A stretch of 34,860 bases of DNA from Paludibacteraceae bacterium (lineage in GTDB: Bacteria > Bacteroidota > Bacteroidia > Bacteroidales > Paludibacteraceae): contig JAKSKX010000021.1 in the NCBI GenBank assembly GCA_024401535.1, positions 1 through 34,860 on the forward strand, given 5' to 3'. Position 1 is the first letter of the stretch; each line of letters opens with the position of its first letter. Of the stretch, positions 8,122 to 24,972 are shown piece by piece. The notes under the pieces were generated by a model that saw only the letters and a program-made list of their open reading frames with translations, was not told the DNA's origin and searched no databases. The position numbers and the translations under genes are program-made.

Positions 8122-10251
8122 TTACTGCTGTTTCTTTTTCAACTCTGGATAAGAGATTCGTGTGTGGTACATAGACTTCAGCTTCTCAATCATCGTGTGT
8201 TTGATTTTGTCAATCTCAGCGAATGTTATTGGAGCCTTGATGAATGCGCCTTCCTGTACTTGTCCGTCAATGATTTTGTTGACAAGGTTAGTTATGTTCT
8301 CTTCTGTAAACTCCTTGACGCTTCGTGATGCAGCCTCAACTGAGTCGCACATCATAAGGATTGCAGTTTCCTTTGTGTCAGGTCTTGGACCAGGGTAAGT
8401 GAAAGGAGTCGGATCCAAAGGCACTTCCGGATTCTTGTTCTGCTCCATTGTATAGAAGTACTTTGCCTGATTTACTCCATGATGAGTTCTTATGAAAGCC
8501 TTGATCTTCTCTGGAAGTCCGTTCTTCTCTGCCAACTCAAGTCCATAGGCAACATGGCTGATGATTATCTGTGCGCTCTTTGTGTTGTCATCAATCTCGT
8601 TGTGAGGGTTGACTCCACGTTGGTTCTCTGTGAAATAGATTGGGTCTTTCAGTTTTCCTATGTCGTGGTAAAGCGCTCCGGTACGCACAAGCAAAGGGCT
8701 TGCTCCGACAGCCTGTGCAACTGCATCGGCAAGGTTGGAAACTCTTATCGAATGCTCGAAGCTACCCTGTGCAGACTCCGAGAACTGGCGTAGCAGAGGA
8801 TTGTTTGTATTGGCAAGCTCCACCAATGTCACGTCCGAAGTGAAGCCGAAAATCTTCTCTATGATATAGATAATAGGGTAGGCGATAAGCAAAAGGAAGA
8901 AGTTGAATACAAAGAACCTCAAGTCCCAGCATACCGAGTAAACCATGTCCATCAAGTTGTTTGTCGTAATCCAACGGGAAGAATAGATGAACGAGCAGCC
9001 GATGTAAAGAAGGCAGTATGCGGCAAGTACATAAAGCGCACACCTGACAAGCTGCTGGCGTTCATAGATAGTGTTCAACGTGCAGATTGTAAGCATTCCG
9101 ATAACCACCTGCATCAAAAGGAATTCAGCTCCTGCATGGATGATTACGGAACAAATAAGCACAGTCGTGTTGTGCATGAACAGTGCTGTTCGCGTATCAA
9201 AGAATGCAGTCGTGACGATAGGCAGAAGTGCAAAAGGAATTACATAGATGTAGGTCTCGAAGTTATACACAACAAAGGACGTCACACCGCAAAGCGCACA
9301 TATCATCATAAGCATGAACAGCACGTTCTTCAGCTCTTTGGCAAACTTGGCGCGGAATCGTGTCAGGTAAAGGAAGAATGTGATGAGCGCCGCCAACACA
9401 ACAAGGAACTGTCCAATCTTGACACTCATCTTTGTTGCAGAGCTTCCGTTCTGCTCGATGTAGATTCTGTATGAATTGATTTTGTCGTACTCGTTGCGGT
9501 TGATTTTCTTTCCCGAAGCGATGATTGTTTCTCCCTGACTTACAGTTCCTTTGGTCGTAGATATCTTGTTTACGATGTCCATGCGACTCATCTCGCTTCT
9601 TTTTGCGTCATAGAAGAGGTTAGGAATCAGCAGTTTGTCAAGGTCGTATTTCTTGAGAATTGAGATGTCAAGGCTTGCTGGAGCAGTCTTGATGATTCGC
9701 TGGTAGGCAGTTTTGGGAGTGTATATTGTTGGCTTGTCCTTGTCCGCAGATGCCAGTCTCTTTTGGATAGAAGCCTTGGCGTCGTTAGATGCACTGCTGA
9801 ATACACGAATTGCCTTGACGCTGTCCTTGAATCGGTCGTAGTCCTCGGTTGACATGATACCGCTTTGATAGATGTTTCGTATCTGCTTGACAATGTGCTT
9901 TGTGTAAAGGTCGGCAACTTCCGAAGAAGTTGATGTCCTGCCCATTATCTTAGGCATTACAGAGTTGATTATCTCGGAAGAATCCTTGAAATACGGCTGA
10001 TAGTTAGCCATCAGTGTGCTGTCAATCTCAGCTTTCAAAGAGCGTTCGTCCTTGTATATGACGAAGTCGCCGGCCGCCTTCAAGTCCTCTTTTCGCCAAA
10101 CTTCTCCAAGTTCATATTCGTTCTCGAAGTCAACCTTGGCGTTTGAAGGAAACATATACATGATAATCACAGTAAGCACCAGAAACATAAGTGCGATCAC
10201 CCATGTTTTCTTAACTTTCTTACCAAATATTTCTACGTATTCGTTTTCCAT
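8122..10251 (-). CDS. 7TM-HD family phosphodiesterase (PgpH-type)
   Basis: A 709-residue inner-membrane protein. It has one N-terminal helix (about 17-35), an extracytoplasmic domain (about 40-275), a bundle of about seven helices (275-470) and a cytoplasmic HD domain (about 495-700). The metal ligands are present: His500 (GSFEHSIR), His529-Asp530 (LYHDIGK), His566 (ISHVAYG), His590-His591 (RTHHG) and Asp636 (MMCDSVEA). Members such as Listeria PgpH hydrolyse cyclic di-AMP; that activity here is inferred from family membership. The extracytoplasmic region matches the 7TM-HD extracellular type. It lies 13 bases after the exonuclease-kinase-RapZ fusion, which raises the possibility of a link between cyclic di-AMP and amino-sugar or cell-wall control. 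Confidence 0.9.
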   Translation of the reverse strand: MENEYVEIFGKKVKKTWVIALMFLVLTVIIMYMFPSNAKVDFENEYELGEVWRKEDLKAAGDFVIYKDERSLKAEIDSTLMANYQPYFKDSSEIINSVMPKIMGRTSTSSEVADLYTKHIVKQIRNIYQSGIMSTEDYDRFKDSVKAIRVFSSASNDAKASIQKRLASADKDKPTIYTPKTAYQRIIKTAPASLDISILKKYDLDKLLIPNLFYDAKRSEMSRMDIVNKISTTKGTVSQGETIIASGKKINRNEYDKINSYRIYIEQNGSSATKMSVKIGQFLVVLAALITFFLYLTRFRAKFAKELKNVLFMLMMICALCGVTSFVVYNFETYIYVIPFALLPIVTTAFFDTRTALFMHNTTVLICSVIIHAGAEFLLMQVVIGMLTICTLNTIYERQQLVRCALYVLAAYCLLYIGCSFIYSSRWITTNNLMDMVYSVCWDLRFFVFNFFLLLIAYPIIYIIEKIFGFTSDVTLVELANTNNPLLRQFSESAQGSFEHSIRVSNLADAVAQAVGASPLLVRTGALYHDIGKLKDPIYFTENQRGVNPHNEIDDNTKSAQIIISHVAYGLELAEKNGLPEKIKAFIRTHHGVNQAKYFYTMEQNKNPEVPLDPTPFTYPGPRPDTKETAILMMCDSVEAASRSVKEFTEENITNLVNKIIDGQVQEGAFIKAPITFAEIDKIKHTMIEKLKSMYHTRISYPELKKKQQ

Positions 10252-10264
10252 AAATGCTATTTGA

Positions 10265-12421
10265 TTATTCTTCTCTCAACTCAAAATTCTGTGTGATTCC
10301 TTGTTCTCTATGCTCAAGTTGTACTTGAACCCCGTACTTTTCGGACAAGTGCTCGGCAAGGTGCTGCGCTGAATAGACAGATCTGTGCTGTCCGCCGGTG
10401 CATCCGAAACAGAACATAAGGTTAGAGAATCCTCGTTTCATGTATCTTTCCACGTGTGCGTCGGCAAGCGCATAGACACTATCGAGGAATGTGAGTATTT
10501 CTCCGTCTTCCTCAAGGAACTTCTTCACGCTCTCGTCGAGTCCAGTCTTCTGCTTGTACTCGTCGTATTTGCCGGGGTTATGGACAGCGCGGCAGTCGAA
10601 CACATACCCGCCACCGTTTCCAGAGTTGTCTTCCGGAATACCTTTCTTGAACGAGAAACTCATAACCCTCACGCATAGAGTGGAGTTGTCGAATTTTGGT
10701 TTGGTCATATTTTTTAGAACTCTGCCCAGTTCTGGGTATTTTTTTATATACTTTATTGCAAATGGACGTACATTGTCCAAGGCCTGAGGAATAGATTCAA
10801 GGAACATTGTTTTGCCCTCTTTGTAGCCTCTAAGTCCATAAGCACCAAGGACTTGTATCATTCGTATGAAGACAAAAAAGTCAAGTTGTTCCCTAACTTC
10901 CATCTCGTCCACATCCACGAAATCCTTTAGTTTTCTGATATATGCGTTTATAAGCTTGTCCTTCAGCCTGTCAGGGAAGTTAGCTCTTGCTTGATAGACA
11001 AAAGAAGCAACGTCGTAAAGGCACGGACCGAATCTTCCCCCCTGGAAGTCTATGAACGCAGGGTTGTTTCCGCGCATCATGATGTTGCGAGTCTGGAAGT
11101 CACGGTACATGAATCCCCAATACTTGCCCTTGGTCATGGCGAAGTCCTCACAAACTTTCTCGAAGTCATGAGTTATAGCTTCTCTGTCGTATGTTATGCC
11201 GTCGTGGTGGTTAAGGAAACAGCCCCTGAATTTCTCGAGGTCTGCCATCAGTGCCTCCTTCGTGAATTCTGCGTCAGGAAAACATACCGAGTAGTCCAAA
11301 TCCTTGTTTACAAGGAATTGAATTTCTGGCAGATGCTCGATAGTGTTGATTAGTATGCTTATTTCATTCGGTTCAAATTTGCCTTTCCTGACTCCATTCT
11401 TTACTGCTTCAAGCAGAGAAGTGTCGCCAAGGTCGGTTTGTATGTAGCACAACCTGTCTTCGCTAATCATTACAGTGCGAGGGCAAAGAATCTTGTGCTT
11501 CTTCATGTTTTCTGATATGGCGAAGAATGCCTCGTTCTCTGCTACGCTTTCACCTATTGTTCCAATGAAAGTTCCTGCCTCTCCGGAAAGTCTGTAGTAT
11601 TTTCTTCCCGAACCGGCGGCTTTGAGTAGCTCCATATTGGCAAGAGGTTTTCCTTGAAGCCTCAAGTATAGGTTTTCAAGTTTCCTGATATTTTCCTCTT
11701 CGGCGAATTTGTCGTCAGTAGCTATCTTTCGTGCGTTCAGCTTTGCATAGATAGCCTCTTTGCGAGCTTCCAGCTCCTTTTCGTACTCTCTGCGTTCTTT
11801 TGTGTGAGGTTGGTCCTCCACATCAATGCCTTTCTCAACGTCGCTAAGGCAAAGGTATATAGAAAGGGTTGCGTAAGCGTCCAAAGCGGCATACTGCACC
11901 TGCTTTTCTGTTAGCTTTGGGGCTTCCCAGTTAGTAAGTCGCTGACGTTTGGAAATCTGCTCGCCAAATATAATGGCATACATCTTTGCAAGACTCTTGT
12001 CAGTGATGCCGAACTTAGGTGCCATCTGCTGCAGTTCCACAATGTTGTTGAGCTTGGTCTTTTCTCTGCGTTGAAGTGCAGAGATGTCATCTGCGAAACT
12101 TAGTCCTATCTTTTTGACCGACTCGCTCTCTAGCACTTTCTTGATTGAGTCAGGAATGTTTCCTATCTTGCACAAGCGGATAAGGTAGCATCTGTCAAGT
12201 GTGCTTAGCTGAAGCAGAGCAACCGGATTCATTCCCCCTTTGTTGAACACGGGTTTTGTTTCGGTGTCTAAACCAATAACCTCTTGAGTAAGCAAGAATT
12301 TGGCAGCCTCGTTAGCACCATTCTCATCATTAACGACAATACATTCACCGCGAAACTTCGCTATTGGAAGTCCCGTTATCTCGTCCTTGCTTATACTTGG
12401 CTTAAATATATTGATGTTCAT
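10265..12421 (-). CDS. fusion: RNase D-like 3'-5' exonuclease + APH/AmgK-like kinase + RapZ C-terminal domain
   Basis: A 718-residue protein with three recognisable parts in one uninterrupted frame. Residues about 25-195 are a DEDDy exonuclease: Asp52/Glu54 (GLDTETK), Asp111 (SFADDIS) and Tyr177...Asp181 (YAALDAY). Residues about 205-260 are charged and helical, a likely coiled linker. Residues about 262-560 are an aminoglycoside-phosphotransferase-type kinase with a glycine-rich start (GSGRKYYRL, 270-278), catalytic loop YRDFQTRN (Asp441, Asn446) and metal-binding DFQ (Asp458). This YRDFQ style occurs in sugar kinases such as AmgK. Residues about 582-718 match the RNA-binding C-terminal domain of RapZ: FSFKKGIP, VFDCRAVHNP, TGLDE and FGCTGGQHRSVY. 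RapZ senses glucosamine-6-phosphate and guides sRNA decay in enterobacteria; the kinase replaces RapZ's own P-loop domain. Function as a nuclease-coupled sensor is inference. Confidence 0.9.
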   Translation of the reverse strand: MNINIFKPSISKDEITGLPIAKFRGECIVVNDENGANEAAKFLLTQEVIGLDTETKPVFNKGGMNPVALLQLSTLDRCYLIRLCKIGNIPDSIKKVLESESVKKIGLSFADDISALQRREKTKLNNIVELQQMAPKFGITDKSLAKMYAIIFGEQISKRQRLTNWEAPKLTEKQVQYAALDAYATLSIYLCLSDVEKGIDVEDQPHTKERREYEKELEARKEAIYAKLNARKIATDDKFAEEENIRKLENLYLRLQGKPLANMELLKAAGSGRKYYRLSGEAGTFIGTIGESVAENEAFFAISENMKKHKILCPRTVMISEDRLCYIQTDLGDTSLLEAVKNGVRKGKFEPNEISILINTIEHLPEIQFLVNKDLDYSVCFPDAEFTKEALMADLEKFRGCFLNHHDGITYDREAITHDFEKVCEDFAMTKGKYWGFMYRDFQTRNIMMRGNNPAFIDFQGGRFGPCLYDVASFVYQARANFPDRLKDKLINAYIRKLKDFVDVDEMEVREQLDFFVFIRMIQVLGAYGLRGYKEGKTMFLESIPQALDNVRPFAIKYIKKYPELGRVLKNMTKPKFDNSTLCVRVMSFSFKKGIPEDNSGNGGGYVFDCRAVHNPGKYDEYKQKTGLDESVKKFLEEDGEILTFLDSVYALADAHVERYMKRGFSNLMFCFGCTGGQHRSVYSAQHLAEHLSEKYGVQVQLEHREQGITQNFELREE

Positions 12422-13146: not shown

Positions 13147-13983
13147 TTATATTCTGTTAATCTTTAGTTCGCTTACTGTTCCCTCTATTCTCTCGAAAAC
13201 AAATATTCTGTCAAACTTGCTGTCGTAGGTGTGGCTTAGTGCATACTGGACATCGTGAGAGTTATAGCGGCTCGACATCAAGAAACTGTTTTGAATTATC
13301 AGCAGCCAGTTTTCGTCGCTTGGCTCATAGTGCACTATCTTTTCGTCTTTGTCCTTGATTCGGTCAGTTATGCTTTCTACACTCATAGGCTTGATTTTCG
13401 TAGATATTCCTGCATACCATAAACCTTCCTCGTACCTTCCTGTCATGTTTCTCACGCGAATCTCTTCGATTTTTGAAGGGAGGTTCAAGTCTCCATATTT
13501 GCTTGTCCGGTCTATCAAGTATTCCTTTCCGGTAGAGTTTGGAATATTGTCAAGCACAATTTTGGCTATGCTTTCTGTGAAGCCCTCGCTAAGCAGCATT
13601 GAGCGTCTGTCTCTAGGCACGCAAATAGATGGACCAAGCTCGTCCTTGAAATGCACGTCAACGATAAGCTTTTGAGAAGACTCCCTCTCTACAATTTGCT
13701 GAGCGCCATGCATGATTTCTGTCAGGAAGTCCTCGTGAGCACGAAGATTGAACTCAAGGTCGTCTCGTTCGTACTTTAGTTCCGTGAGTTCTATGCCTAT
13801 CTTCCTTCCTCCGTTAGTGTTCAGAATGAAGTCCGGACATTCGCTTTTCTCGACTTTGCCTATGGGGAAAGAGGTGAAAGAGGAGCGGAACAAGCGAAGA
13901 ATCGCCCATTCTCTTTGGTCTTTTTTCTGCTGATTATGACTGATTTGACTCGTTGTTACGTCGTCGATTCTAAATTCGCACAT
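13147..13983 (-). CDS. hypothetical protein with possible PD-(D/E)XK nuclease core
   Basis: 278 residues, soluble, not recognised as a named family. The start at 13983 is preferred over 14019 because the latter lies inside the promoter -7 box, whereas 13983 follows AAGGAGG with 5-base spacing. Near the N-terminus, CPDFILNTNGGRKIGIELTE is followed by LK: Pro50-Asp51, then Glu65 or Glu68-Leu-Lys70 on a hydrophobic strand. This is the layout of PD-(D/E)XK nuclease folds, preceded by a helix containing Glu25. The rest is mixed alpha/beta, with YAGISTKIK and WLLIIQNSF strands. It is a single-gene unit with its own promoter and terminator and no methyltransferase or other partner beside it. It could be a DNA-processing or defence nuclease, but this is inference. 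Confidence 0.55.
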   Translation of the reverse strand: MCEFRIDDVTTSQISHNQQKKDQREWAILRLFRSSFTSFPIGKVEKSECPDFILNTNGGRKIGIELTELKYERDDLEFNLRAHEDFLTEIMHGAQQIVERESSQKLIVDVHFKDELGPSICVPRDRRSMLLSEGFTESIAKIVLDNIPNSTGKEYLIDRTSKYGDLNLPSKIEEIRVRNMTGRYEEGLWYAGISTKIKPMSVESITDRIKDKDEKIVHYEPSDENWLLIIQNSFLMSSRYNSHDVQYALSHTYDSKFDRIFVFERIEGTVSELKINRI

Positions 13984-13988
13984 AACTG

Positions 13989-13995
13989 CCTCCTT
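13989..13995 (-). promoter_or_regulatory. strong Shine-Dalgarno site (AAGGAGG) deciding the start at 13983
   Basis: On the minus strand AAGGAGG lies 5 bases before ATG. Most genes in this window have no such site, as is usual in Bacteroidota; the other clear one precedes porX (AGGAGG, 24981-24986). Confidence 0.8.
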
Positions 13996-14016
13996 CCTTC
14001 CTAAGAATAACAACTG

Positions 14017-14048
14017 CAAATATATTATATTTAGAATTAGATTACAAA
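14017..14048 (-). promoter_or_regulatory. canonical Bacteroidota promoter of the putative nuclease gene
   Basis: On the minus strand TTTG (14045-14048) is followed after 20 bases by TATATTTG (14017-14024). This gives a short leader of about 25 bases before the ATG at 13983 and excludes the ATG at 14019 as a start. Confidence 0.8.
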
Positions 14049-14121: not shown

Positions 14122-15741
14122 TTAGTCTTCTGCATAGGTTTCCTCTTCCTCTGCGGGATTTGTGATGTCATTATGCTCAGAGTCCTTGAATACAAACTGA
14201 AGCATGCCGAGTGACTCGTCCGGATAAACCGAGAAGCTTCCATATTTTCTCTTCCACTTCCATTTCAAAGAGTTGAAGAAGAAGCCTTTAGAGATGTATG
14301 CGTAAACGTAAGGGTTCACGTGTAGCGAGAAATCCTTCACTTTACGGTCTTCCTTCATTGCTCTGATTGCTTCCTCTAGGTCGTTCTCGAAGCAGATAGA
14401 AGGGCGAGCCTTTCCTGTACCCATACAAGTCGGACAAGTTTCGTTTGTGTCAACCTTCATTACAGGTCTCACTCTTTGTCGAGTAATCTGCATAAGGCAG
14501 AACTTGCTGAGAGGCAGAATGTTGTGACGAGCCTTGTCTTTAGCCATGTTCTGCTTCATGCGGTCGAACAATGCCTGTTTGTTCTCTCCTTTCAGCAGGT
14601 CGATGAAGTCGATAACGATGATTCCTCCGATATCTCTTAGCCTCAACTGACGGGCAATTTCATCTGCAGCTGCAAGGTTTACTTCCAATGCGTTAGTTTC
14701 CTGGTCGTTTGACGCTTTGGTTTTGTTTCCGCTGTTTACGTCGATTACATGCAAAGCCTCTGTGTGCTCGATGACAAGGTAGGCGCTGTTCTTGAACGAC
14801 ACCATTCGGCCGAAAGAACTTTTTAGCTGTCTTGTTACGCCGTAGTGGTCGAAAAGGGAGATGTTGCCATTGTAAAGTTCCACGATGTTCTCTTTCTCTG
14901 GAGCGATACGTCGAACATAGTTCTTTACAATCTCGTATTCCTCCTCATGGTTTACAACAATGCTGTCGTAAGAAGGAGAGAACGAGTCACGAAGCAGTCC
15001 TGTCACGATGTCAGCCTCTTGATGAAGCTGTTTGGGAAGGTTCTCTCTTGATATTCCTGCCACGATGTTGTCCCACTTCTCGAGCAAGAAATCCAATTCC
15101 TTCTGGAAATCCTCCTCTTCCATGCCTTCCGCCATAGTGCGGACGATTAGTCCGAAATTCTTGGGCTTTATCTTAGTCAGAATCTGCTTGATTCTTTTCT
15201 TTTCTGCATTGCCCTTGAGCTTCTGGGAAAGGAAAATCTTGTCAGACAGGGGAATGAGCACAAGTGCTCGTCCGGCTATCGAAATTTCAGTTGTGAGCCT
15301 TGGACCTTTAGTGGATATTGGTTCCTTTACGATCTGCACCAATATCTCTTGTCCTACTGCAAGCACATCTTTTATTTCTCCCTTCTTTTCAAGAATAGGA
15401 ACTTCTGCGTATTCCTGCACCTGAGGTTTCTTGGCGGAGCTGTTTGTCAGAACATCTCTGGTAAAGCTGTACACAGCTTTAAACTGAGCACCTAGGTCCT
15501 GATAGTGGAGAAAAGCCGCCTTGTCAAAGCCGACATCTACGAAAGCCGCATTTAGACCTGGCATGACTTTCTTGACTTTAGCCAAGTATATGTCTCCCAC
15601 CTGATACTTGCCCAAACCATTTTCCTTATGGTATTCAACGAGCTTCTTGTCCTCAAGCAGAGCTATATCTATGCCTTCGTCCTGTACGTTAATAATTAAT
15701 TCGTTGTTCAAAACCGAGTGTTTTTGATATGTGTTAAACAT
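14122..15741 (-). CDS. rng: ribonuclease G/E family endoribonuclease
   Basis: 539 residues from the start at 15741, chosen because family homology begins right after it (NELIINVQDEGIDIALLED) and the in-frame upstream codons encode a low-complexity His/Thr-rich stretch. It contains an S1 RNA-binding domain (VGDIYLAKVKKVMPGLNAAF, about 48-67 onward) and the catalytic RNase E/G domain with metal-binding Asp334 (HVIDVNSG) and Asp378 (IIVIDFIDLL). The zinc-link motif CPTCMGTG (Cys436, Cys439) follows. It lacks the long degradosome scaffold of RNase E, so it is the short RNase G-type form. It cleaves single-stranded RNA in rRNA processing and mRNA decay. It follows the HU and small ribosomal protein genes, separated by a hairpin. 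Confidence 0.95.
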   Translation of the reverse strand: MFNTYQKHSVLNNELIINVQDEGIDIALLEDKKLVEYHKENGLGKYQVGDIYLAKVKKVMPGLNAAFVDVGFDKAAFLHYQDLGAQFKAVYSFTRDVLTNSSAKKPQVQEYAEVPILEKKGEIKDVLAVGQEILVQIVKEPISTKGPRLTTEISIAGRALVLIPLSDKIFLSQKLKGNAEKKRIKQILTKIKPKNFGLIVRTMAEGMEEEDFQKELDFLLEKWDNIVAGISRENLPKQLHQEADIVTGLLRDSFSPSYDSIVVNHEEEYEIVKNYVRRIAPEKENIVELYNGNISLFDHYGVTRQLKSSFGRMVSFKNSAYLVIEHTEALHVIDVNSGNKTKASNDQETNALEVNLAAADEIARQLRLRDIGGIIVIDFIDLLKGENKQALFDRMKQNMAKDKARHNILPLSKFCLMQITRQRVRPVMKVDTNETCPTCMGTGKARPSICFENDLEEAIRAMKEDRKVKDFSLHVNPYVYAYISKGFFFNSLKWKWKRKYGSFSVYPDESLGMLQFVFKDSEHNDITNPAEEEETYAED

Positions 15742-15857
15742 AATATCAAACGCACTGCTTTTGAGTAGTTTGTGTGTGAATAGTGTGCTGTGTTCGTAGT
15801 GATATTGTGTTGTGTGGTTAATCAAACGGTGTGTATGGTGTTGTGTGTGAACTAAAA
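15742..15857 (-). other. C/A-rich, G-poor leader of rng
   Basis: The 116 bases upstream of rng are, on the sense (minus) strand, almost free of G and dominated by CACA/ACAAC runs, unlike flanking DNA. The stretch is open in the rng frame back to an ATG at 15882, which lies in the upstream hairpin; coding for a His/Thr-rich extension is unlikely. An unstructured leader could serve translation or RNase-mediated autocontrol, but that is inference. Confidence 0.5.
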
Positions 15858-15907
15858 AACTAAAGAACAAACAAAATACCATCCGGATAAAATGTTTGTT
15901 CTTAGTT
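15858..15907 (-). terminator. hairpin between the small ribosomal protein gene and rng
   Basis: Arms 15858-15873 and 15893-15907 pair over 15 bp with one bulged base, enclosing a 19-base loop. On the minus strand a T-run (TTTTT) follows soon after. It probably terminates the HU/small ribosomal protein transcript or attenuates read-through into rng. Confidence 0.65.
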
Positions 15908-20261: not shown

Positions 20262-20364
20262 TAACTATTGACTATTAACTATTGACTGCCATGAGAAAGC
20301 TAATCATAATAATACTGTCACTGTTCGGCATTGCGCTGACAGCCTTTGCCAAGACTGTCAAGGA
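20262..20364 (+). repeat. 103-bp leader + signal-peptide cassette, copy 1
   Basis: Differs at one base from the copy at 21714-21816 (C versus T in codon 12 of each gene). It starts with two tandem copies of a TAACTATTGACTAT-type unit (20262-20288), then the ATG and the first 24-25 codons. Similarity stops abruptly after GTCAAGGA. Confidence 0.9.
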
Positions 20365-21649
20365 GGGAAACTCGCCCTTGAAGTTCGAAATTATGCGTGG
20401 CAGCGAGGCACAAGTAGCCGGCTTGAAAAACGAAGATGAAAGGGAAACCATCACAAGCGTAAAGATTCCGGCAGAGGTTGAAATCAACGGCAAAACATAC
20501 AAGGTCGCAAGTGTGGACGTTTTGGCATTCGCCTTTTGCGAAAGCCTCAAGAGCGTGAAGATTCCCAACTCGGTGACTAAAATCGGGTGGGGTGCGTTCC
20601 TTGAATGCAGAAGCCTTGAAAGCGTGAAAATTCCCAAATCGGTAAAGTTTATTGACACTGATGCATTCAAAGAGTGCAGTCTTAGAAGCGTGAAGATTCC
20701 AAACTCGGTGGTTGAAATAGGCAAAGATGCATTCGCCTGGTGTAGCCTCAAGAGCGTAAAGATTCCAAACTCGCTGACTGAAATCGGGTGGGGTGCGTTC
20801 TGTGGCTGCAACTTCAAAAGCGTAAAGATTCCAAACTCGGTGGTTGAAATAGGCAAAGATGCATTCGCCTGGTGTAGCCTCAAGAGCGTAAAGATTCCGA
20901 AATCGGTGACTGAAATCGGCGATGGCGCGTTCAGTAACTGCAAAAGCCTAGAAAGCGTGAAGATTCCGAAATCGGTGACTGAAATCGGCGATGGCGCGTT
21001 CAGAAGTTGCAAAAACCTGAAAAGCATAGAGATTCCAAACTCTGTAAGAGACATCGAATGGAGTGCGTTCCAAGACTGCAGAAGCCTAGAGAGCGTGAAA
21101 CTGCCCGACTCGTTGGAAGCAATCTTTCCTCGTGCGTTCGAGGGCTGCGACAGCCTCAAGAGCATAGATATTCCCAACACAGTGACTGAAATAGGTGATG
21201 GCGCGTTCTTTGCCTGTAAAAGCCTCAAAAGCGTGGTGATTCCCGACTCGGTGACTGAAATAGAGAGAGAGCTGTTCATGAACTGCTACAACCTTGAAAG
21301 CGTGGTGATTCCCGACGCGGTGGATGAAATAGGAAAGAGCGCATTCTTTAACTGCAAAAGCCTCAAGAGCGTGAAGATTCCCGACTTGGTGACTGAAATA
21401 AACAAGTATTCGTTTCTTGGTTGCGAGAGCCTTATAAGCATCGTAATTCCTGACGCAGTGACTGAAATCGGAGAGAGAGCGTTCTATAACTGCGCAGGAC
21501 TTACAAGCATAGATATTCCGAAATCGGTGGAATTTATCGACAAGGAGGCGTTTCTAGATTGCTCAAACCTCAAATCAGTTCGCGTGCCGAAAGGTTGCAA
21601 GATTGGAGAGAACGCATTACCAAAAGAGTGCGAAATTGAATGGTACTGA
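20291..21649 (+). CDS. BspA-like leucine-rich-repeat exported protein, copy 1
   Basis: 452 residues. The signal peptide MRKLIIIILSLFGIALTAFA is followed by a short unique segment and then about 16 BspA/TpLRR repeats of about 22-23 residues (LKSVKIPNSVTEIGDGAF type), ending in a cap (VRVPKGCKIGENALP...EIEWY). Such repeats form extended right-handed solenoids used for adhesion and protein binding in Bacteroidales and treponemes. Start: the third Met codon region at 20291, because it begins the signal peptide and matches its paralogue. No T9SS C-terminal domain or lipobox is visible, so anchoring is unclear. Nearly identical DNA repeats inside the gene (period 132 and 69 bp) make the repeat number prone to change by recombination. 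Confidence 0.9.
   Translation: MRKLIIIILSLFGIALTAFAKTVKEGNSPLKFEIMRGSEAQVAGLKNEDERETITSVKIPAEVEINGKTYKVASVDVLAFAFCESLKSVKIPNSVTKIGWGAFLECRSLESVKIPKSVKFIDTDAFKECSLRSVKIPNSVVEIGKDAFAWCSLKSVKIPNSLTEIGWGAFCGCNFKSVKIPNSVVEIGKDAFAWCSLKSVKIPKSVTEIGDGAFSNCKSLESVKIPKSVTEIGDGAFRSCKNLKSIEIPNSVRDIEWSAFQDCRSLESVKLPDSLEAIFPRAFEGCDSLKSIDIPNTVTEIGDGAFFACKSLKSVVIPDSVTEIERELFMNCYNLESVVIPDAVDEIGKSAFFNCKSLKSVKIPDLVTEINKYSFLGCESLISIVIPDAVTEIGERAFYNCAGLTSIDIPKSVEFIDKEAFLDCSNLKSVRVPKGCKIGENALPKECEIEWY
20693..20898 (+). repeat. exact 74-bp repeats, 132 bp apart, inside the first BspA gene
   Basis: 20693-20766 and 20825-20898 are identical over 74 bp, covering the segment that encodes VEIGKDAFAWCSLKSVKIP. The spacing equals two repeat units, so exchange would keep the frame. 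Confidence 0.85.
20891..21003 (+). repeat. exact 44-bp tandem repeats, 69 bp apart, inside the first BspA gene
   Basis: 20891-20934 and 20960-21003 are identical and encode KIPKSVTEIGDGAF. The spacing is one 23-residue repeat unit. Confidence 0.85.
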
Positions 21650-21713: not shown

Positions 21714-21816
21714 TAACTATTGACTATTAACTATTGACTGCCATGAGAAAGCTAATCATAATAATACTGTTACTGTTCGGCATTGCGCTGACAGCCTTTG
21801 CCAAGACTGTCAAGGA
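21714..21816 (+). repeat. 103-bp leader + signal-peptide cassette, copy 2
   Basis: Pairs with 20262-20364 (102 of 103 bases identical). It fronts the second BspA-like gene, whose mature part differs from the first directly after the cassette. Confidence 0.9.
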
Positions 21817-22840
21817 CGATATGCGCTTCTACTACACCAAGCCGACAAGGACTGCAACGGTGGACAGCCTTCTGAACGGTGATGCGACAGAAGTCAAAAT
21901 TCCTTCAAAAGTGCAGAAAGGCCTAAGGGTTTACGATGTGACGGGAATCGGGTGGTATGCGTTCTGGGAATGCAAAAGACTGAAAAGTGTGGAGATTCCC
22001 AACTCGGTGGAATATATCGGCGATTATGCGTTCACCTATTGCACAAACCTAGAAAGCATAGAGATTCCTGGCTCGGTGACAAAGATTGAAGACTCTGCGA
22101 TCACAGATTGCCCGAGCTTGAAAAGCATTGCTGTTGACAAGGAAAACAAAGTCTATGACTCGAGAGGGAACTGCAATGCAATCATAGAAACCGCGACAAA
22201 TGCGCTCGTTACAGGCTGTCAAAGCACAGTGATTCCTAACTCGGTGACAGAAATCGGCAGCCACGCATTCTCTGGCTGTTCAACCCTTGAAAGCGTGGAA
22301 ATACCTAACTCGGTGACAGAAATCGGATATAAGGCATACGAGAACTGCGACGGCCTTGAAAGCGTAGAGATTCCCAACTCGGTGAAAAGCCTGGGTGTGT
22401 ATGCGTTCAGAGGTTGCAAGAGGCTGAAAAGCGTCAAGATTCCAAACTCGATTCGTTACATCATTGCCGTGTTCGTGAACTGCCCAAGCCTTGAAAACGT
22501 GGAACTGCCAAACTCGCTGTATGAAATCGACAGTGCTTTCGCCGGTTGCAAAAGCTTGAAAAACATACAAATTCCAAACTCGGTAAAGGAAATCGGCGAG
22601 TATGCGTTCGAGAATTGCACAAGTTTGGCAAGCATAGAGATTCCCGACTCGGTAAAAGAAATAGGTTCGTTTGCATTCTATAACACAGCCCTTGAAAGTG
22701 TGGTAATTCCAAACTCGGTAAAGGAAATCGGCGAGTATGCGTTCGGCGAATGTGCAAAACTGAAGTCAGCCCGCGTGCCTAAGGACTGCAAGCTTGACAA
22801 TCACGTTTTCCCCGACACTTGCGAAGTGGTGTTCTACTGA
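21743..22840 (+). CDS. BspA-like leucine-rich-repeat exported protein, copy 2
   Basis: 365 residues. It has the same signal peptide as copy 1, then a different N-terminal segment (DDMRFYYTKPTRTATVDSLL) and about 11 BspA/TpLRR repeats. These are interrupted by the insert VDKENKVYDSRGNCNAIIE, a typical element of BspA proteins between repeat blocks. It ends with the cap ARVPKDCKLDNHVFPDTCEV. It is probably a secreted or surface binding protein; the ligand is unknown and no sorting domain is visible. It lies 93 bases after copy 1 and converges with the DUF4878-porX-porW operon, whose genes serve protein secretion. Confidence 0.9.
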   Translation: MRKLIIIILLLFGIALTAFAKTVKDDMRFYYTKPTRTATVDSLLNGDATEVKIPSKVQKGLRVYDVTGIGWYAFWECKRLKSVEIPNSVEYIGDYAFTYCTNLESIEIPGSVTKIEDSAITDCPSLKSIAVDKENKVYDSRGNCNAIIETATNALVTGCQSTVIPNSVTEIGSHAFSGCSTLESVEIPNSVTEIGYKAYENCDGLESVEIPNSVKSLGVYAFRGCKRLKSVKIPNSIRYIIAVFVNCPSLENVELPNSLYEIDSAFAGCKSLKNIQIPNSVKEIGEYAFENCTSLASIEIPDSVKEIGSFAFYNTALESVVIPNSVKEIGEYAFGECAKLKSARVPKDCKLDNHVFPDTCEVVFY

Positions 22841-23424: not shown

Positions 23425-24972
23425 TTATAGTTTCTTCATTGTTACTATTGGCAGCATCATTTCCTCGAGCGACACGCCGCCGTGCTGGAATGTGTTCTTG
23501 TAGTACTGCACATAATAGTTGTAGTTGTTCGGGTAGGCGAAGAAGTCATCGTTAGTCGCAAATATGTATGCGCTCGAGATGTTAGGCGAAGGCAGACCTA
23601 CAAGCTCGGGCTTCTTTATTGCAAGCACCTCCTTGGCGTTGTAGTCAAGGTTCTTTCCCACCTTGTACCTTAGGTTTGCGTTCGTGTTCTTGTCTCCGAT
23701 GACCTTTATTGCGTTTCTCACATGAATAGTTCCGTGGTCGGTAGTAAGCACGACCTTGCAGTCAAGTTCCTTCAAGGCTGTAAAGAATTCCTTGATAGCT
23801 GAGTGCTTGAACCAAGTCTCGGTAAGCGAGCGGTAGGCGGCGTCAGTGGCGGCAAGCTCGCGAATCATCTTGCTGTCAGTGCGAGCGTGCGAAAGCATAT
23901 CGACGAAGTTGAAAACAACGACATTCAAGTCCTTGTCCTTGAGTTTCTTGAGTTCGCTGACATACTTTGTTGCTGCGCCTGAGTCGTTAATTTTGTTGTA
24001 CGAGTATGTGTATTTCTTTCGGTATCGCTCAAAGAAAGTGCCGATTAGTTCGCTCTCGTACTGGTTCTTGCTTTCCTCGTCGCTTTCATCAATCCAGAAC
24101 TGGGGGTAGAGCTGTTTGATTTGCAAAGGCAATAAGCCCGAGAAGATTGCGTTTCTTGAGTACTGCGTGCTTGTTGGCAGCATACTGCAGTAAAGCCCTT
24201 CCTCCTCGCACAGGAAGTCTTTGCTCAAAAGTTCCCTGATGATTCTCCATTGGTCGAAACGGAAGTTGTCGAATACGATGAAGAACACCTTTTCTCCGTT
24301 GTCAAGCAGAGGGAGAATTTTCTTCTTCATGACGTCCTGGCTCATCAACGGCCTATCTGTGTTTTCACCGAACCAGCTCTCGTAGTTTTTCTTCACATAC
24401 TTAACGAACGCAGAGTTTGCTTCGTCCTTCTGCATCCTTAGAATCTCGTCCATGTCAACAGCCGAGTCGGAAAGCTGAAGTTCCCAATATACAAGTCTGC
24501 GATAAAGTTCTGCATAGTCGTCGAACGAGCTAGACTCGTTAATCTGCATGCTGATCTTAGTGAACTCCGATCTGTATGCGTCAGTTGTTACTGTGTTGAT
24601 GATTTCCTTTCCCTTGATGTTCTTCTTGAGTGAAAGCAGGATCTGGTTAGGATTAACCGGCTTGATGAGGTAGTCGGCGATTTTCTTGCCTATAGCCTCG
24701 TTCATGATGTCTTCCTCCTCGCTCTTTGTAATCATTACGATTGGCACAGTCGGGTCAATCTCCTTGATTTGTTGCAGAGCCTCGAGTCCGCTCATTCCCG
24801 GCATATTCTCGTCCAGGAAGACAATGTCGAAGTGAGAAGACTTGCAAGCGTCGATAGCGTCCATTCCGTTAGTCACGCACTCGCATTCATAGCCTTTCTG
24901 TGTTAAGAATATGATGTGGGCTTTCAACATGTCGATTTCATCATCAGCCCAAAGAATTTTTCCTTGACTCAT
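23425..24972 (-). CDS. porX: PorX-type response regulator with PglZ phosphodiesterase domain
   Basis: 515 residues, cytoplasmic. The receiver domain (1-120) has Asp10-Asp11, phospho-acceptor Asp54 (VFLDENMPG), Thr82 and Lys104 (YLIKPVN). A helical linker (about 125-215) leads to a PglZ/alkaline-phosphatase-type domain with candidate zinc ligands Asp235 (IVFDNFRFD), the PTSTQYSR segment (266-273), Asp358 (FNFVDMLSH), Asp412-His413 (TTDHGT) and His497 (FQHGG). Length and motifs match PorX of Porphyromonas and Flavobacterium, which controls T9SS genes and acts as an oligonucleotide phosphodiesterase. AGGAGG lies 8 bases before the start. It is 39 bases after porW. The sensor kinase PorY is not in the window. 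Confidence 0.95.
   Translation of the reverse strand: MSQGKILWADDEIDMLKAHIIFLTQKGYECECVTNGMDAIDACKSSHFDIVFLDENMPGMSGLEALQQIKEIDPTVPIVMITKSEEEDIMNEAIGKKIADYLIKPVNPNQILLSLKKNIKGKEIINTVTTDAYRSEFTKISMQINESSSFDDYAELYRRLVYWELQLSDSAVDMDEILRMQKDEANSAFVKYVKKNYESWFGENTDRPLMSQDVMKKKILPLLDNGEKVFFIVFDNFRFDQWRIIRELLSKDFLCEEEGLYCSMLPTSTQYSRNAIFSGLLPLQIKQLYPQFWIDESDEESKNQYESELIGTFFERYRKKYTYSYNKINDSGAATKYVSELKKLKDKDLNVVVFNFVDMLSHARTDSKMIRELAATDAAYRSLTETWFKHSAIKEFFTALKELDCKVVLTTDHGTIHVRNAIKVIGDKNTNANLRYKVGKNLDYNAKEVLAIKKPELVGLPSPNISSAYIFATNDDFFAYPNNYNYYVQYYKNTFQHGGVSLEEMMLPIVTMKKL

Follow-up and report, generated by a model that had tools for sequence, protein, structure and literature searches.

How a single bacterial protein came to carry an exonuclease, a sugar-kinase-like domain and the C-terminal domain of RapZ, and what such a protein might do, are the questions raised by one open reading frame in a Paludibacteraceae genome. 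The frame lies within a stretch of 34,860 nucleotides (hereafter the window), where it occupies positions 10265..12421 of the minus strand, with its start codon at 12421 and its stop codon ending at 10265, and encodes 718 residues. The N-terminal part is a DEDDy 3'-5' exonuclease domain (residues 28-192; 11846..12340, minus strand) that matches Pfam DNA_pol_A_exo1 (PF01612) over the same residues (E 2.1e-25; 89.9 bits against a curated cut-off of 23.6). The APH/AmgK-type kinase domain that follows (residues 257-572; 10706..11653, minus strand) contains an APH match above the curated cut-off (residues 432-495, E 1.6e-9), and the RapZ C-terminal domain (residues 584-707; 10301..10672, minus strand) is recognized throughout by PF22740 (E 1.8e-34; 119 bits against a cut-off of 27). 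In the AlphaFold2 model of the 718-residue protein (pLDDT 91, pTM 0.68) the three domains are well folded, and exonuclease and kinase are linked by a hinge at residues 202-206, modelled with low confidence, and a 48-residue helix at 209-256 (link at 11654..11824, minus strand). Structure matches comprised the WRN exonuclease and RNase D for the first domain, APH-type kinases including a GlcNAc 1-kinase for the second, and the E. coli RapZ-CTD for the third; AmgK itself was not among the fold matches listed, which is no evidence against kinship with AmgK. The first-pass annotation, which had read all three domains in one protein, is thus upheld by profiles, model and structure matches alike.

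The catalytic residues are likewise in place, with one correction. Asp52, Glu54, Tyr177 and Asp181 had been assigned to the DEDDy set together with Asp111, but the correct acid is Asp112, which aligns with the Asp of WRN and, like the other four, is found in every one of the 83 exonuclease rows, whereas position 111 is Asp in just 74 of the 83. The proposed APH catalytic loop stands, as Asp441, Asn446 and Asp458 do not vary across the nine-row exonuclease-kinase alignment of the genus proteins, and the window protein has both the loop YRDFQTRN and the DFQ motif IDFQGG. The RapZ C-terminal signature, also named at the outset, is FGCTGGQHRSVY and was located at residues 672-683.

Such a frame might in principle reflect two adjacent genes joined by a sequencing error, a doubt that the first-pass annotation itself had raised. 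The genus to which the genome belongs, a Paludibacteraceae genus of gut bacteria including Candidatus Scybalocola, speaks against this: exonuclease and kinase share one frame in all nine genomes compared (eight of eight besides the window's), and in each of the eight mates the exonuclease-kinase protein is 586 residues long, with dN/dS far below 1 in the pairs for which it was computable. A sequencing or assembly join is ruled out by this recurrence, and the exonuclease-kinase join is real and maintained by selection. All three domains in one frame are found only in the window's genome (one assembly) among the nine; in the eight mates RapZ is a separate next cistron, the TAA of the exonuclease-kinase cistron overlapping the RapZ start by 11 nt in a different frame.

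Among the loci examined outside the genus, kinase and RapZ are split at 11 and in one frame at 60 (61 with the window, one genome being counted twice). Out-of-phase overlapping kinase and RapZ cistrons were seen at L010, L011, L015, L021, L024, L028, L031-L034 and L085, and split cistrons in the genus mates at L036-L043; the overlap is 11 nt in the genus and 23-35 nt or more elsewhere. Splitting apparently arose more than once. A programmed frameshift in the mates was considered, and visual inspection of the 11-nt overlap showed no slippery run; the frameshift is disfavoured because overlapping start and stop codons with re-initiation offer a simpler account.

The kinase-RapZ pairing, which the earlier reading had placed in Bacteroidota, is indeed common across the genomes searched, and RapZ_C is present in 271 of 300 family genomes. 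A joined exonuclease, by comparison, was found nowhere outside the genus in family, order, phylum or pattern searches. Among 71 family genomes of 33 genera, four of them from the genus, the exonuclease-kinase join was absent outside the genus, and in two single-contig family genomes (G001 and G024) the exonuclease lies about 380 kb and 960 kb from the kinase-RapZ gene. The window's was the only joined protein among the best matches listed for 295 order genomes, at most three candidates being scored per genome, and again among 118 phylum genomes, 50 of which gave a match, the genus mates not being among the genomes drawn for these two samples. Pattern scanning across 84,980 species, which picks up a genome only if it contains WGFMYRD or DTETKPVF exactly, kept 79 loci, eight of which, all from the genus, span query residues 6-574. 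No description of an exonuclease/phosphotransferase/RapZ fusion was found in the openly licensed literature, in agreement with the initial impression that the added exonuclease was undescribed. In these searches the fusion is specific to one Paludibacteraceae genus, and it joins two ordinary Bacteroidales modules.

As to its origin, a concatenated exonuclease, kinase and RapZ tree of 28 genomes places the genus rows in one clade (98/98 support), as does the kinase and RapZ tree (support 97, with a long-branch warning), and the genus clade of the exonuclease-only tree, at 57, is unsupported. Long branches lead to the fused proteins, and when either side is omitted the other half lacks stable neighbours or a supported place. 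Two independent fusions were considered, given that the window kinase is up to 47% identical to those of other genera versus 39-40% to those of its genus mates, and are disfavoured by the concatenated tree; from these alignments a single origin is favoured, though not proven. The fused clade is under purifying selection. Among ten pairs drawn from five mates, dN/dS was 0-0.05 for the exonuclease (8/10 pairs computable), 0.03-0.07 for the kinase (6/10), 0.08-0.19 for the linker (5/10) and 0.02-0.13 for RapZ, non-computable pairs being saturated at silent sites, and the exonuclease-kinase link region is the fastest-changing segment among the genus mates.

What was joined can be read from the neighbourhoods of the unfused halves, which point to two units, DUF5063-exonuclease and kinase-RapZ. 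In the window a DUF5063 gene (PF16702; 12440..12985, minus strand) lies directly upstream of the fusion, as it does in 8/8 genus mates and at 19/19 fetched family exonuclease loci. At L083 and L105 separate exonuclease and kinase-RapZ genes belong to a single cluster of like orientation, separated by other genes, and at L090, L092 and L101 they lie at similar distances or on a common contig. The window protein and five mates keep all 25 exonuclease columns whose conservation across unfused relatives reaches 95% (74 rows), some unfused rows having been found via kinase or exonuclease patterns, so that conservation at those motifs is favoured. Downstream, a 7TM-HD hydrolase gene identified by Pfam (8122..10251, minus strand) starts 13 nt past the fusion's stop codon and is probably co-transcribed with it. 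Upstream of the DUF5063 gene lies an RNase E/G gene (14122-15882, minus strand), which was not evident by eye among the ORFs listed for the surroundings of three mates (L067, L068 and L071); between the two is a 290-residue frame with a TTG start and no Pfam match (13147-14019, minus strand). The window also holds two tandem BspA-type leucine-rich repeat proteins (20282-21649 and 21734-22840, plus strand) that share a start segment (MTAMRKLIIIIL.LFGIALTAFAKTVK), and PorX, a type IX secretion system response regulator (23425-24972, minus strand; NCBIfam 802.7 bits, cut-off 300).

Within the kinase domain one motif has been rewritten. The sequence [WF]DL[NH]Y[FW]KY, present in 70 of 70 unfused rows, is replaced at residues 393-400 by ADLEKFRG in the window protein (11222..11245, minus strand, from the alignment with unfused relatives) and by ADFAKFET in all eight mates, position 397 being Tyr in every unfused row and Lys in 9/9 fused ones. 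The motif sits in helix 388-405 of the model, and the catalytic loop is unaffected. Of 65 kinase columns at least 95% conserved in the 70 unfused rows, the window protein keeps 57 and five mates keep 52, with the catalytic motifs intact. The rewritten motif suggests that the fused kinase changed its substrate or its contact with a partner, and because the motif is lost along with 8 (window) or 13 (mates) of the 65 columns, its substrate may no longer be MurNAc or GlcNAc.

A role for AmgK and MurU in the recycling of MurNAc by a Bacteroidota species has been described (PMC7670621), and a MurU-like nucleotidyltransferase is encoded in 9/9 genus genomes; the copy in the window's genome has MurU as its best profile, at 127 bits and below the cut-off of 370. 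In the four genomes whose surroundings were fetched this gene is unlinked, the kinase not being found there, and the loss of linkage in the genus weakens the connection to sugar activation. At 21 kinase loci outside the genus from the pattern scan a MurU-like gene is next in 12, fused with kinase-RapZ in five, nearby on the other strand in one and not seen in three, and at 20 further family kinase-RapZ loci it is near in 14. The fused cases are single kinase-RapZ C-terminal-MurU-like proteins of 735-774 residues (L079:1446-3653, L083:7992-10265, L090:7932-10256, L101:7989-10262 and L105:7995-10277; Pfam confirmed on L079 and L105), and they constitute a natural link of the RapZ-CTD to sugar activation.

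The RapZ domain was first supposed to bind RNA as in E. coli, and this part of the early reading is not sustained. The domain as such is well kept: the window and five mates retain 41/41 columns at least 95% conserved in 70 unfused rows, and by alignment with E. coli RapZ, whose fold and pocket are treated in passages of PMC5737377, the pocket residues Cys247, Thr248, Gly249, His252 and Arg253 persist as Cys674, Thr675, Gly676, His679 and Arg680. Pocket His190 is Gly617 in the window and Gly in 77/77 family rows, so that four of the five residues His190, Thr248, Gly249, His252 and Arg253 are kept. In E. coli RapZ, GlcN6P binds the C-terminal domain and changes at Lys270, Lys281, Arg282 and Lys283 abolish RNA binding (PMC7073468, in the part used here); the RNA contacts have been mapped, and His190, Gly249 and Arg253 mutants are inactive (passages of PMC9841335). 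None of the four tail residues is present in the window protein: position 270 aligns with Val, the chain after the aligned His-Arg is EQGITQNFELREE, there is no Lys-Arg-Lys cluster, and the last 19 residues have a net charge of -3 (-3 to +4 in 65 unfused proteins, -3 to 0 in nine genus proteins). Of seven named RNA contacts, Lys170 and Arg184 are kept, Arg196 is Lys, and four are lost (Lys194 to Glu, Arg211 to Glu, Arg238 to Phe and Lys251 to Gln). Across the family, position 238 is Phe in 76/77 rows and 251 is Gln in 69 and Arg in seven; the losses at 211 and 194 are not family-wide, since Lys occurs at 211 in 22/77 rows and Arg at 194 in 12. Moreover, GlmZ (RF00083) was not found in the genome, the E. 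coli control being positive. Since the tail residues and several contacts are missing, the domain is unlikely to bind RNA in the way E. coli RapZ does. Some RNA binding is possible given the retained Lys170, Arg184 and most of the pocket, and in the mates the Lys/Arg-rich, basic linker between exonuclease and kinase could provide another mode.

What the fusion does can be weighed against this background. The reading we prefer, with a probability of about 0.5, is that of a bifunctional enzyme, arisen by genus-specific fusion of a DUF5063-linked DEDDy 3'-5' exonuclease with an AmgK-like kinase-RapZ protein, which would combine an amino-sugar kinase (or a descendant of one, with a changed substrate), a RapZ sensor or assembly domain and a tethered, predicted active exonuclease. 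The substrate of the kinase would be a MurNAc- or GlcNAc-like amino sugar, phosphorylated at its anomeric position; the MurU-like nucleotidyltransferase, whose gene lies elsewhere in the genome, would make the UDP-sugar. The RapZ domain would bind the amino-sugar phosphate and regulate or assemble the kinase rather than bind RNA, and the exonuclease, tethered by hinge and long helix, would act on short or 3'-exposed nucleic acid, its amount and location thereby following the kinase. It is unlikely that the genes were instead joined by chance after a rearrangement, the domains acting independently and sharing expression alone. The single origin in one genus, the flexible hinge with a pTM of 0.68, the full-length modules on either side and a RapZ part that is joined or split at no apparent cost would all suit a chance joining; yet the fusion is kept in 9/9 genomes at a constant length in the eight mates, the kinase motif is rewritten in the fused clade alone among the rows examined, and the unfused genes lie within one gene cluster at L083, L090, L092, L101 and L105.

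A more elaborate function is conceivable in which GlcN6P or a similar sugar phosphate is sensed by the RapZ domain, which also captures an RNA for the built-in exonuclease to trim; amino-sugar supply would thereby be tuned, and the fusion would do in one protein what RapZ and RNase E do together. The five retained pocket residues, the intact exonuclease catalytic residues, the maintenance of the fusion by selection and the precedent of E. coli RapZ, which couples GlcN6P to RNA cleavage (parts of PMC7073468 and PMC9841335), are in its favour, but it is improbable given the missing tail residues and contacts, the family-wide Gly in place of a histidine needed in E. coli (PMC9841335, same passages), the failure to find GlmZ in the genome, and the fact that RapZ is off the exonuclease chain in 8/9 genus members, though it may still bind it. 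There is a slim chance that the kinase-RapZ half responds to amino-sugar status, sensed as substrate or as a sugar phosphate, and uses the hinged helix to gate the exonuclease tethered to it, the rewritten motif marking a switch from enzyme to receptor; if so, cell-wall sugar supply would directly set RNA (or DNA) turnover in the genus. Slimmer still is the prospect that the fused kinase gained a new, exonuclease-linked substrate such as a nucleoside, a nucleotide or an RNA end: the replacement of a motif universal in unfused rows, the intact catalytic loop and the lost nucleotidyltransferase linkage in the four genomes looked at would fit, but the motif could also be where the kinase touches RapZ or the nucleotidyltransferase.

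RapZ is the textbook case of a sugar-metabolism domain turned RNA regulator, but beyond the Enterobacteria its C-terminal domain is found in the company of kinases and nucleotidyltransferases. The genus clade offers a natural test of whether this domain belongs to metabolism, to RNA or to both, because a nuclease is on the same chain or in the next cistron and yet the E. coli RNA-binding tail is missing. Should the nuclease answer to amino-sugar phosphates, a direct link between cell-wall recycling and RNA decay would become testable with one purified protein.

Set beside known systems, the window protein resembles each in part. E. coli RapZ has an N-terminal P-loop domain, His190 and the RNA-binding tail; the window protein has Gly in place of the histidine and lacks the tail residues, no Pfam match to the P-loop domain was found in it, and the RapZ equivalog NF003828 scores 103.6 bits against a cut-off of 244, over profile positions 144-277 only. 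The kinase, at 47.2 bits, is below the cut-off of 550 for the AmgK equivalog NF045759 and is 13% identical to the N-acetylhexosamine 1-kinase NahK (4ocv, with GlcNAc), but the scores of choline and homoserine kinases are much the same, and the fold does not tell the substrate. Residues 1-199 match the Bacteroidales DEDDy exonuclease linked to DUF5063 (PF01612; WRN/RNase D-like), which likewise has DUF5063 upstream but is normally a stand-alone protein of about 193-280 residues; against the RNase D equivalog TIGR01388 the window protein scores 33.1 bits, below the cut-off of 298.95. Residues 245-718 constitute a full-length member of the Bacteroidota kinase-RapZ proteins that are found beside MurU-like genes (43-53% identity to one-frame family homologues), from which the window protein differs in its added N-terminal exonuclease, in a nucleotidyltransferase that is not adjacent and in its rewritten kinase motif.
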